From Bifidobacterium sp. (GTDB taxonomy: Bacteria > Actinomycetota > Actinomycetes > Actinomycetales > Bifidobacteriaceae), in contig JAGGHK010000004.1 of the NCBI GenBank assembly GCA_024104275.1, forward strand, positions 1 through 64,000: a stretch of 64,000 nt of DNA, in the 5' to 3' direction. Position 1 is the first letter of the stretch; each line of letters begins with the position of its first letter. The notes below the pieces were generated by a model. The model did no database searches. It was not told where the DNA came from and was given only the letters and a program-made list of their open reading frames with translations. A program made the translations under genes and the position numbers. Of this stretch, positions 28,486 through 32,711 are shown in pieces.

Positions 28486-30752
28486 TCAACACATGCGGAG
28501 GCGACGGCGACGGGCGACATCGACGAGTAGGACCATCGCCGCTGCAGCAAGCGCAGGAAGGAGGATGCGGTGCCACCAGTCGGCCGGGGCATCGCCGCCG
28601 GTCAGGGGCAGTGCGGTGACCACGGGCATCGTCGTATCGAACGTCACCGTTGACGAGACGTTGGGCTCGCCGCTGCCCACCAGCGTCGGTTCGGCCGCGA
28701 CAGGGGCATCCTTCGCCGTCATCTGCGAGTCGCCCTTGAGCAGGACACCAGCGGGAACCGGCAACGTGAAGGTTCCATCGCCGGAACCCGAGGTGGGACA
28801 GGTCGCTCCCGCCACATCAGCCGTCCCGGAATTGCAGGTCAACGTCGTGGACACGGGCGACGAACCAGTCGGCCAGGTCACCGTGACGCTGAAATCGGTC
28901 TCCTTGACACGATTGGATTGCTTGGTGGCATCACCGGAACTCCAAACGGAACCCGACACCGTTCGCGCATTCTTGTCAAACGACGCGCCCGCAACAGCGG
29001 GAGCGACCACATCGGCCTGTTTGCCAGTAGAGAACGCATAATCCGAGTTGCCATCGGAAGTCGTCACCAGCCGTGCCCGGAACACATACGGCATCCCTTG
29101 GCCGACATCATCGGCATCCGACAACGCCGACATCGGGAACGTTGCCGACCAGTCGCATGCAGTTGGCGTACACGAGGTTGTATTGAGAGTCACGTCACCC
29201 GCAGCCGCAGGAGTGCCGACGGTCGGAACCGTTGAAGAAGGACTAGCTTTCGGCATCAGCGCGACCTCAATCGCGTCGCCAGCCTGCAACGCATAGATTC
29301 CGCCACCCTGCGGAACCGTCCCTGAAACCTTCACCTTGCCCGCAACACCGCCGCTCATCCACGGAAACACCAGATCATTCGACACAGTAGGCGTTGGAAC
29401 CCACACACCATACAGCGTCAGGTCTTTCGTAGGCGTATAGGCACTGCCCAAAGAATACTGCGGCGTCGTTGCGTTGGCGCTTTCACTCCACCCAGCCAGC
29501 TTGTAGCCGGAACGAGCGAAACCGGAACCGGAAGACAACGTGACACCCGGATTATCCGGCCATCCACCCTTGACCGCACCAGCTGACCCTGACCCACCAT
29601 TGGCGTTGAACGAGACCTCATAGGGACGGCCATACCATTTGACAACACTCGGCGGGCGAGAGGAACCATTAACTTTTCCCGACCACGAACCGTCTTCTGC
29701 GTCCCACGTGTATCCCCAAACTCCCAGCCCATCATAATCAATCCAAGTAGTTTTCAGCCCCATTCGGAAGAATCTCAATTTCGGAGGACCGTTAAACATA
29801 TAATCGACCTCGACGGCATGACTCACGGTGTCAAGACCTGAAATATCAAGTCTCACCAACTCATGAAGACCATAAAACATAAAGCGCATACTTATTGCAC
29901 TTCGCGTATCCCAATGCGACAAATCTAGAGACTGAAAAGCATTATCCATAAACATATAATCAAATAAAGCAACATTAGAAACATTCCATCCACTAACGTT
30001 TGCGAATGAAAGATAATTGCTTCCCTGAAATACAAATTGCATATTTACGACATGTGAAGTATCCCAACTCTCTAGCCCGTAAATCGCCGTCAAACTGCGG
30101 TCATTGGCAAAAAGCCCATAAAAACTATTGGCCTGACTCGTTATTACCAAATTTGCAACACTCGCTGTCTTGACAGATGTAAATCCGATCCAACCGTTGA
30201 ACAGATTCGAAGCATCGAGAACGGTGACAGGTCTTGACGCACCAACAAACGTCACCGAAGAATCCCTAATCCATGGGAGCACAAAAGCATCAGGATGCGA
30301 CGGTATAGTACCACCATATAAATCAAGCACACAGTCATTCCCACTGACGTATTCCTGCCAATACAATGTCGACCCGTTATACGTCCAAATATGCTGACCA
30401 GGCTGATTGCACGTAACACCCTGCGGCGAAACCACCGGCGTGGTTTGCGGTGGATCGGACTGGGAGCCTACCGGCGCGGAATCATCCGCGGTCGAGGAAC
30501 CAGGCCGATTGGCACCCCCCCGCTTGAATTTCCACCAACAGAAGGCACGGAATTTGAAGCAAGGGAAGAACCTCGCCAAGATGTGGATGGTGAGGGCGCT
30601 GACTCCGATGACAAATTCTCAACAGAAGATCGCGAAGATGCGGATGTGTTCGGCATCTCAGACGCAAACGCGGCAGTCGGGGCAACGCCAAACGAGACAG
30701 CCACCGCGACAAGCGCTGTCAGCAGCTTGCCGGCCATTCCACGCATACCCAT
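28486..30752 (-). CDS. LPXTG surface protein gene, out of frame at a G7 tract (candidate phase-variable)
   Basis: From the ATG at 30752, with AGGGGAG 6 nt upstream, a signal peptide (GKLLTALVAVAVSFGVAPTA, cut after AFA) leads into a Ser-rich segment. This frame stops at 30468. The rest lies in another frame, open from about 30579 to 28486. It has BspA/DUF285-type repeats (WDTSxxxxMxxxF), an InlB/Flg_new repeat (SFNANGGSG to LTLYGVWV), Ig-like modules, and a C-terminal LPLTGG, hydrophobic helix and RRRR tail for sortase anchoring. The frames meet at seven Gs (30515-30521). One extra G would give a continuous 755-residue protein. It is probably an adhesin in the OFF state. Confidence 0.8.
30515..30521 (-). 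repeat. G7 homopolymer tract at the frame switch
   Basis: Seven consecutive G on the coding strand lie exactly where the signal-peptide frame and the surface-domain frame overlap. G8 (or G5) restores the frame. The distance from the start at 30752 to the stop end at 28486 is 2267 bp, one short of a multiple of three. Confidence 0.8.
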
Positions 30753-31055
30753 ACCAGACTCCCCTTGCACACATCGCAGTCACTACACCAAACAACTCTG
30801 TAAACGGTAACCACTTAATACGATACCACGCACACCTGTCACACCAATATACACAAAGCCGGCCCCATTTTGCCCTACACTGCCCAATAAAAACACGAAC
30901 GACATTTGGATAAGCACGATACCAAAGAATTCATCGGATGGGACCAACTTCTACAGCCTTGGCAACCGAAGAAACCGGCAGCAATCCGACAAGCAGCCAA
31001 ACAATCTACCAGTCAAACAGGCGATTACATGTTTCCGACCCTCATCGCCGGGCTA

Positions 31056-31198: not shown

Positions 31199-32632
31199 TC
31201 ACAGCCCCATGTACAATTCATCGGTCGCGACGAAACGCATCTCGTCGCCTTGCCCATAGCGTTTGCGCGTGGCGGCACTCACCGGACGCTTGCTGAACAG
31301 TATGCATTGCGTACGGGCTGGCGTAAACCCCGGCACAAGCCCCATCCGCCCACGCAACTTGCCTATCGCTTCAGACGCATCAAATGTATTGCGCCACTTG
31401 CATTCACCTATCAGCAAACGCTTGCTTTCAGGATTCGCGGCCACCACATCGATATCGGTCTGCTCATGGGCCACCGGGTCGTTGCCCCACCACTTGCCAA
31501 ATCTCGTGGCGGGAAACGGAAGAACCGACGTCCCAGCGAACCGCAGCAGCCATTGCAGGCAAATCTGCTCGAACCACTGGCCGGCATACGTTGAGAACAC
31601 TTCTCCAAACGCCGAGCTTTCCATGTCCTCACGTCCCCTTCCACTCTCGATCGAGTCGATGTTCGTCCCCACAAAACGGAACCAGTAAGCGAAAAAGGGA
31701 TCGGCGATGATATACATTCCTTTGTGCGATTTCACCGGATTCTCGCCAAATGGAACAATACGTACGACCAAACCCAAATCGACGAGCATATTCAGATACC
31801 TGGCGACATTCGCGACGCTCACGCCAGCGTGTTCTGCAATGCGCTTCGGAGTCGAGTTGCCGCCGGCAACCGCCTGCAGCACAGAGAAGTACGAAGCCGG
31901 CTCCCGCGTCTCCTCGCGCAGCAACATCATCGGTTCCTCATACAGAATGCCAGCTTTTCTGAACATCAGATTCGCTACATTGCGCTTCAAACCCAATGAG
32001 GGACGAAGCTGGGCCAAGTAGTACGGTGTTCCACCGAAGATAGCGTAATATTGGACACGCTCCTCATTGGAGACATTTGGCAGGAATCGAGCGGCATCAT
32101 AATAATCAAAAGGTTTCAGCTTGATCTGACCGGTTCTACGCCCATATAACGGGCTTTTGCCACCAAGCACCTCGCTTTCCATAAACCCTTGATTGCTGCC
32201 AGAAAGTATCATCATCATATTGGAGTTCTTAAAACCATGATCAATGGCTATCTGCAAAACAGAAGGCAATGTGGGATCGGCCTGCGCCGCATACGGGAAC
32301 TCGTCAAAAACGAAGACGAAGCGCTCCTTGCCTTGTGCCTGACCACCTTGCGTCAGCTGCACGAAATACCGCAAGGCACTCGACCAATCCGTGAACGCAG
32401 GCAGCTGGGGGACATCAAAGAATGCATACATCGCCCTTGAAAACACCTCCAGATTCAACTTGGTGCTCTTCTGCGTAGCGGTAAAATAGAACGCTCGTTT
32501 CTTTTCGACGAATTTGTCGATCAACGATGTTTTACCCACACGCCGACGGCCATACAGCACCATCATCTCGAATCGCTCACTTTGATACATGTCATTCAAA
32601 GCCTCAAGCTCGTCCTCCCTGCCCACAAACAT
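31199..32632 (-). CDS. AAA+ ATPase with C-terminal DUF234 nuclease-like domain
   Basis: 477 residues from the ATG at 32632. A GTG 15 bp upstream is possible, but MFVGREDELEAL is the usual family start. Walker A is LYGRRRVGKTSLI and Walker B is FVFVFDEFPY, followed by a sensor-like SGSNQGFMES. A winged-helix region (TPKRIAEHAGVSVANVARYL) follows. The C-terminal DUF234 part (about 330-475) holds QTDIDVVAANPESKRLLIGE with CKW, resembling the D-ExK core of restriction-like nucleases. The role of this family is not established. Links to mobile or defence functions are only suggested. A triple repeat precedes the gene. Confidence 0.8.
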   Translation of the reverse strand: MFVGREDELEALNDMYQSERFEMMVLYGRRRVGKTSLIDKFVEKKRAFYFTATQKSTKLNLEVFSRAMYAFFDVPQLPAFTDWSSALRYFVQLTQGGQAQGKERFVFVFDEFPYAAQADPTLPSVLQIAIDHGFKNSNMMMILSGSNQGFMESEVLGGKSPLYGRRTGQIKLKPFDYYDAARFLPNVSNEERVQYYAIFGGTPYYLAQLRPSLGLKRNVANLMFRKAGILYEEPMMLLREETREPASYFSVLQAVAGGNSTPKRIAEHAGVSVANVARYLNMLVDLGLVVRIVPFGENPVKSHKGMYIIADPFFAYWFRFVGTNIDSIESGRGREDMESSAFGEVFSTYAGQWFEQICLQWLLRFAGTSVLPFPATRFGKWWGNDPVAHEQTDIDVVAANPESKRLLIGECKWRNTFDASEAIGKLRGRMGLVPGFTPARTQCILFSKRPVSAATRKRYGQGDEMRFVATDELYMGL

Positions 32633-32711
32633 GATCGTGCCTTTCACTCGTGCTTCAGACCGGCAATCGCACAGTCCTCTTTCATTTATCTCGACAATAG
32701 GATTATAGCAG

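Follow-up and report, generated by a model that had tools for sequence, protein, structure and literature searches.

Repertoires of contingency genes governed by simple repeats are found in Campylobacter, Neisseria and Mycoplasma. Within the genus Bifidobacterium, a poly-G switch that works by replication slippage is known for the sortase-dependent pilus operons and has been demonstrated in B. breve (Penno et al. 2022, PMC9187656), as the first-pass annotation of the present DNA had noted. According to that report, deep sequencing of B. breve revealed mixed G-tract lengths, with the productive lengths enriched in mice. The Bifidobacterium pilus tracts tabulated there measure 8–13 (PMC9187656, Table 1), the genome survey it describes covered sortase pilus clusters, and other G-tracts were noticed in B. 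breve UCC2003; B. dentium pilus clusters are treated in PMC12104195. The PARCEL/DUF285 surface proteins form a second point of comparison (PMC2996958), and in the main text of the paper on them, as available to us, the terms 'Bifidobacter' and 'LPXTG' are absent. Among the open-licence papers listed, no title or abstract opening dealt with a Bifidobacterium G-tract switch acting on DUF285/PARCEL proteins or on any others outside the pili.

Here we describe a gene lying in a 64-kb stretch of Bifidobacterium DNA (the window, that is, the whole stretch analysed), which resembles the switch in the first gene of the pilus operons of the same genus in that a signal-peptide ORF and an LPXTG ORF are parted at a G-tract, with the register depending on tract length. 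It differs from that switch in its PARCEL/DUF285 and InlB-type repeats, in its tract of only seven Gs and in its surroundings: a profile search matched no sortase on the contig that carries it (C14), although the rest of the genome has six sortase matches, spread over five places, and its neighbours are a K+ transporter gene (K_trans) and an ATPase_2/DUF234 gene. A pilus operon was rejected because the contig has no sortase match. The gene is best read as operating in the manner of a pilus switch without being one, and as a non-pilus variant of the known poly-G switch. With PARCEL/DUF285 proteins it shares a repeat domain scoring above the cut-off of both models, and as a point of difference it combines a sorting motif with a tract located where the signal peptide joins the body. 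One repeat domain in its body is of the kind found in InlB-type (Listeria-Bacteroides) repeat proteins (PF09479); a sequence search with the body, taken to E 0.01, matched no chain of solved structure. As in the contingency repertoires, several surface genes carry homopolymer tracts, with putative combinatorial states; the difference is that the present ones belong to a sorting-motif family of a Gram-positive actinobacterium.

Anatomy of the window gene and its junction

The features of the gene are collected in Table 1. As assembled, the signal peptide, the LPXTG motif, the hydrophobic stretch and the basic tail are all present, split over two registers of the minus strand. The upstream frame runs from an ATG at 30752 to a stop codon (30470-30468) that starts 44 nt past the tract, and its N-terminus resembles, on sequence comparison, those of the G034, G054 and C13 genes described below; the body frame stays open between 30618 and its stop codon at 28488-28486. 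The length of 755 residues foreseen for the restored protein agrees with the span 30752-28486, and it is also correct that the product as sequenced is truncated, as the frames are out of register and about 94 aa would be made, and that the body frame has no good start past the tract: its first start codon (GTG, 30435) is not preceded by a Shine-Dalgarno-like sequence, and its first ATG lies at 30042.

Table 1. Features of the window gene, in window positions
Feature	Position	Strand	Basis or remark
Shine-Dalgarno-like AAGGGGAG 5' of ATG	30759..30766	minus	direct sequence reading
Upstream frame of 94 aa with signal peptide (MGMRGMAGKLLTALVAVAVSFGVAPTAAFAS...) and a Ser-rich linker	30468..30752	minus	sequence reading
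G7 tract (C7 on plus strand) at linker/body junction	30515..30521	minus	sequence reading
Body frame 3' of tract	28486..30514	minus	672 stop-free codons from 30504; stop codon 28488-28486
DUF285/PARCEL repeat region	29785..30120	minus	PF03382, TIGR02167
Listeria-Bacteroides (InlB B-type) repeat domain	29410..29622	minus	PF09479, E 2.3e-9; one domain
Sorting motif LPLTG, followed by a hydrophobic stretch and the tail RRRRLR	28597..28611	minus	motif recognised by eye

In profile searches the body matched PF03382 (E 5.4e-18, 65.3 bits, curated cut-off 25) and TIGR02167 (E 4.9e-13, 48.5 bits, curated cut-off 30). The label 'BspA-type' given at first must accordingly be replaced by DUF285/PARCEL: LRR_5 (PF13306) gave no reported match to the body at E up to 0.1, and BspA proper was rejected on this ground, while the InlB-type repeat claimed at the same time is borne out by the PF09479 match. 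A paralog on contig C17 has a weak LRR_5 match (E 0.0014, below cut-off). The PARCEL and InlB-type repeats, taken together with the sorting motif, suggest a role in adhesion, and the product is probably an adhesin.

The first-pass annotation had the two frames overlapping exactly at the seven Gs. They are indeed out of register and the G7 does lie within their overlap, but the overlap is about 150 bp, wider than the Gs, so that the frames alone cannot place the shift at the tract; it is the homologous junctions that do so. We compared the junction DNA of six genes from five genomes, namely the gene's own genome (G000) and four relatives, G025, G034, G054 and G008 (B. bohemicum), all Bifidobacterium. 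At the homologous junction, recognisable by its similar flanks, the window gene has G7 and is out of register, and so are a paralog of the same genome (C13; G11) and the G008 homolog (G10, with three further runs of 9 close by). The G034 homolog has G6 and one open frame of 741 codons; in the G054 homolog the G stretch is interrupted and a single frame stays open for 791 codons; and the G025 homolog, with G9 at a different site just past the signal peptide, has one open frame of 751 codons. In these three open frames the protein is continuous from the signal peptide to the LPXTG end. The flank just 3' of the tract in the window gene also differs from those of the homologs, and the history of this gene must therefore involve more than tract length alone.

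Tract length by itself says little about chance. Of all G/C runs in the window this G7 is the longest, but the whole genome has eight exact G7 runs, one of the others lying inside an intact aminoacyl-tRNA synthetase frame, and run length was consequently dropped as an argument. Counts of exact runs are 73 for G6, 8 for G7, 5 for G8, 0 for G9, 5 for G10, 1 for G11 and 2 for G12; the drop from 73 to 8 predicts almost no runs of 10 or more, and eight are observed. The G7 of the window thus belongs to the ordinary part of the run-length distribution, and what lifts it above chance, as far as sequence comparison goes, is its position, its register and its homologs.

We propose that both frames belong to a single gene, which would encode a surface protein of the PARCEL/DUF285 kind that is secreted and anchored by sortase, and that replication slippage at the poly-G of its linker/body junction would reversibly shift the register. 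In register, the protein would be exported and anchored to the wall; out of register, as in the assembly, the product would be some 94 aa long and the surface protein absent. That slippage sets the register in the window gene we infer from the anatomy and from the B. breve precedent. A subset of the family having G or C tracts, combinatorial ON/OFF surface variants could result. We put at about 0.7 the probability that the family is slippage-switched and that the window gene is one of its members.

Tracts and reading frame across the family

The window body finds relatives in 19 of 149 genomes, its own included, all of the same genus. PF03382 hits 11 genes of the own genome, with 19 matches in all, and has at least 146, 84, 58 and 18 matches in G025, G034, G054 and G008, respectively. 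We surveyed 95 genes, the 11 of the own genome plus selected genes among the matches listed in these four relatives, calling signal peptides with a home-made hydrophobicity rule and by eye rather than with a trained predictor. A G/C run of at least 7 occurs between -500 and +450 of the body frame start in 27 of the 95 genes, at the signal-peptide/body junction in 26 of them, whereas the 226,191 bp of open frame beyond +450 in the 95 family genes hold none. The exception, L101 (G034:C2:1646869), is in frame and has a G10 254 bp upstream of its open frame, perhaps a promoter tract.

The presence of a junction run goes together with loss of register (22 of 26 genes with runs of at least 7; the four in register are L057, L066, L121 and L125). 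With runs of 6 included there are 29 such genes, 24 out and 5 in (23 scored by script, 6 by eye). The other 66 genes have no run as long as 6. One of them, L140, is cut by the sequence stretch and was excluded; 61 of the 65 assessable ones are in frame, 59 by script and two by eye (L067:292628, L129:2189618), and the remaining four (C3:14601, C15, C13:111656 and L133:1405371) show no in-frame signal peptide. The difference in frame status between run-bearing and run-free genes is highly significant (Fisher P 2.5e-13), scoring by eye accounting for 6 of the 22 out-of-register genes and 2 of the 61 in-frame ones. Further stops or breaks were seen in four of the 22 (C3, L073, L075, L133). By a simple motif rule, an LPXTG-like motif stands at the C-terminal end of 12 of the 26 tract-bearing bodies, among which C19 runs off its contig. 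Unlike the G-tracts of the pili, the tracts occur in several paralogs per genome and include, on the coding strand, poly-C (16 of the 26 scored) besides poly-G (10).

For runs of at least 7, the out/in counts are 4/0 in the own genome (6/0 with runs of 6, the lengths being 6, 6, 7, 7, 10 and 11), 14/1 in G025, 1/1 in G034, 1/0 in G054 and 2/2 in G008. The in-frame share falls below one third only with G025 counted (4/26, P 0.036); the split otherwise is 8 out and 3 in (3/11, P 0.47). Fourteen of the 15 runs in G025 are exactly 9 and one is 10, a near-uniformity that may reflect a technical ceiling or a recent amplification. In G008 there are about 74 G/C runs of at least 9 (25 forward and 49 reverse) versus 8 in the own genome, where the same forward-plus-reverse procedure agrees with the count of exact runs, and four runs of 9 or 10 lie in or near the family gene L073.

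An error of sequencing or assembly, by which the true tract length would differ and the gene would simply be ON, is an unlikely explanation. Homopolymers are error-prone, the annotated tract lengths of B. breve differed from deep sequencing according to PMC9187656, and the runs of exactly 9 in 14 of 15 G025 genes point the same way; but six of the seven other window homopolymers (A/T of at least 7, G/C of at least 6) sit inside open frames of at least 250 codons, the seventh being in none, the G7 in the synthetase gene leaves its frame intact, errors would not restrict runs to the 5' ends of family genes, and even then there would still be a tract that varies from species to species. A second possibility, which we consider improbable, is that the tract causes slippage in transcription or a ribosomal frameshift, so that some full-length protein is made from a fixed DNA. 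G runs can slip during transcription, and the homologs retain the tract though mostly out of frame. Against this, both registers and several tract lengths occur among homologs, most tract-free homologs are in frame, and the pilus genes are reported to slip at the DNA level (PMC9187656).

Replication slippage remains our preferred reading. Its extension to a multi-locus, combinatorial surface-coat switch in a Bifidobacterium lineage, in which single cells would show different PARCEL sets, mostly OFF in culture, we hold to be somewhat better than an even bet; among the genes read in one genome (G025), up to 15 PARCEL genes bear poly-G or poly-C where the signal peptide meets the body. If true, slippage switching in bifidobacteria would extend from pilus operons to another part of the surface-protein repertoire, in a commensal genus, and it would be explained why such genes look broken in assemblies; pseudogene calls within the PARCEL/DUF285 family may be OFF states.

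Constraint on the body and state of the window copy

The body past the tract contains no stop, and its dN/dS is 0.26–0.30 against four homologs, compared with 0.18–0.28 among the homologs themselves and likewise among the three in-frame ones; the window values are on the high side, at or beyond the upper end of what the in-frame genes show, and all are rough, the whole-body dS of 1.0–2.0 being near saturation. In the C-terminal part the values are 0.19–0.22 for the window gene and 0.15–0.24 for the others, and in the N-terminal part 0.33–0.42 and 0.26–0.32, several being undefined. In a neutral simulation of 672 codons (300 runs), 0.05 substitutions per site left 4% of sequences stop-free and 0.1 left none. 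Judging by these comparisons, the body has been under constraint until recently, though out of register as assembled. A stop-free body under purifying selection makes the OFF state look recent, and a simple old pseudogene is unlikely for a body conserved and stop-free over 672 codons.

A young pseudogene is another matter. The window copy could once have switched and now be locked OFF, its tract having become too short for frequent slipping, with the paralogs of longer tract being the live switches, now or formerly. We regard this as a tentative but serious possibility, of rather less than even probability; it is not exclusive of slippage switching in the family, and the two estimates overlap. 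In its favor, the six run-bearing family genes of the own genome are without exception out of frame, and in four of them the runs are as short as 6, 6, 7 and 7. Apparent signs of decay are also seen in other members there: an additional in-frame stop in C3, a stop and no signal peptide in C13:111656, and in C15, read by eye, the loss of the 5' end to an apparent transposase insert. On the other side stand the stop-free and conserved window body and the fact that poly-G/C tracts of 7 or more were counted in a C. jejuni survey (PMC4965091, in the part available to us).

The ON/OFF tract claimed by the first-pass annotation thus stands at the level of the family, through the junction tracts and registers of the homologs. 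That the G7 copy is itself a working switch is more doubtful, this tract being shorter than the 8–13 of the pilus tracts and the six run-bearing genes of its genome being all out of register. Within a family that is probably switched by slippage, the G7 copy would most likely be a slow member or one nearly locked OFF.

Gene neighbors and other long G runs

The C13 paralog adjoins a gene for ribosomal protein L13 (named by eye), and its neighbors are common to the G034, G054 and G025 genes. The ATPase_2/DUF234 gene next to the window gene (31199-32647) has relatives, 41–66% identical over the aligned part, that adjoin three more family genes (loci L050, L053, L057), namely C13:111656, C17 and the G025 gene, which makes it a recurrent neighbor.

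Long G runs of the own genome were also found in other contexts. A G12 in a GH32 gene (L046, G000:C11:531326-531337) accompanies one of two frame changes, the other lying elsewhere, and may reflect a switch or decay. A G10 in an arginase-like gene (L043, G000:C11:187008-187017) coincides with a frame change followed at once by an in-frame stop, and this gene looks decayed. A G7 (L087, G000:C11:346562-346568) marks the meeting point of two frames of a pilin-like gene, which matches GramPos_pilinBB below cut-off; a sortase gene follows some 2 kb later, and the tract is possibly of the known pilus kind. A further G10 (L055, G000:C18:15239-15248) lies inside a signal peptide, within its hydrophobic core; the frame continues for about 200 codons, and another frame change seems to come next. 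Finally, four long G runs near or between genes, located before an ABC ATPase gene (G000:C17:61137), beside a GH31 gene (C12:179191), in a stretch without an overlying frame of 130 codons (C15:30459, a G12) and near a BppU-like gene (C11:823708), could possibly exert promoter effects.
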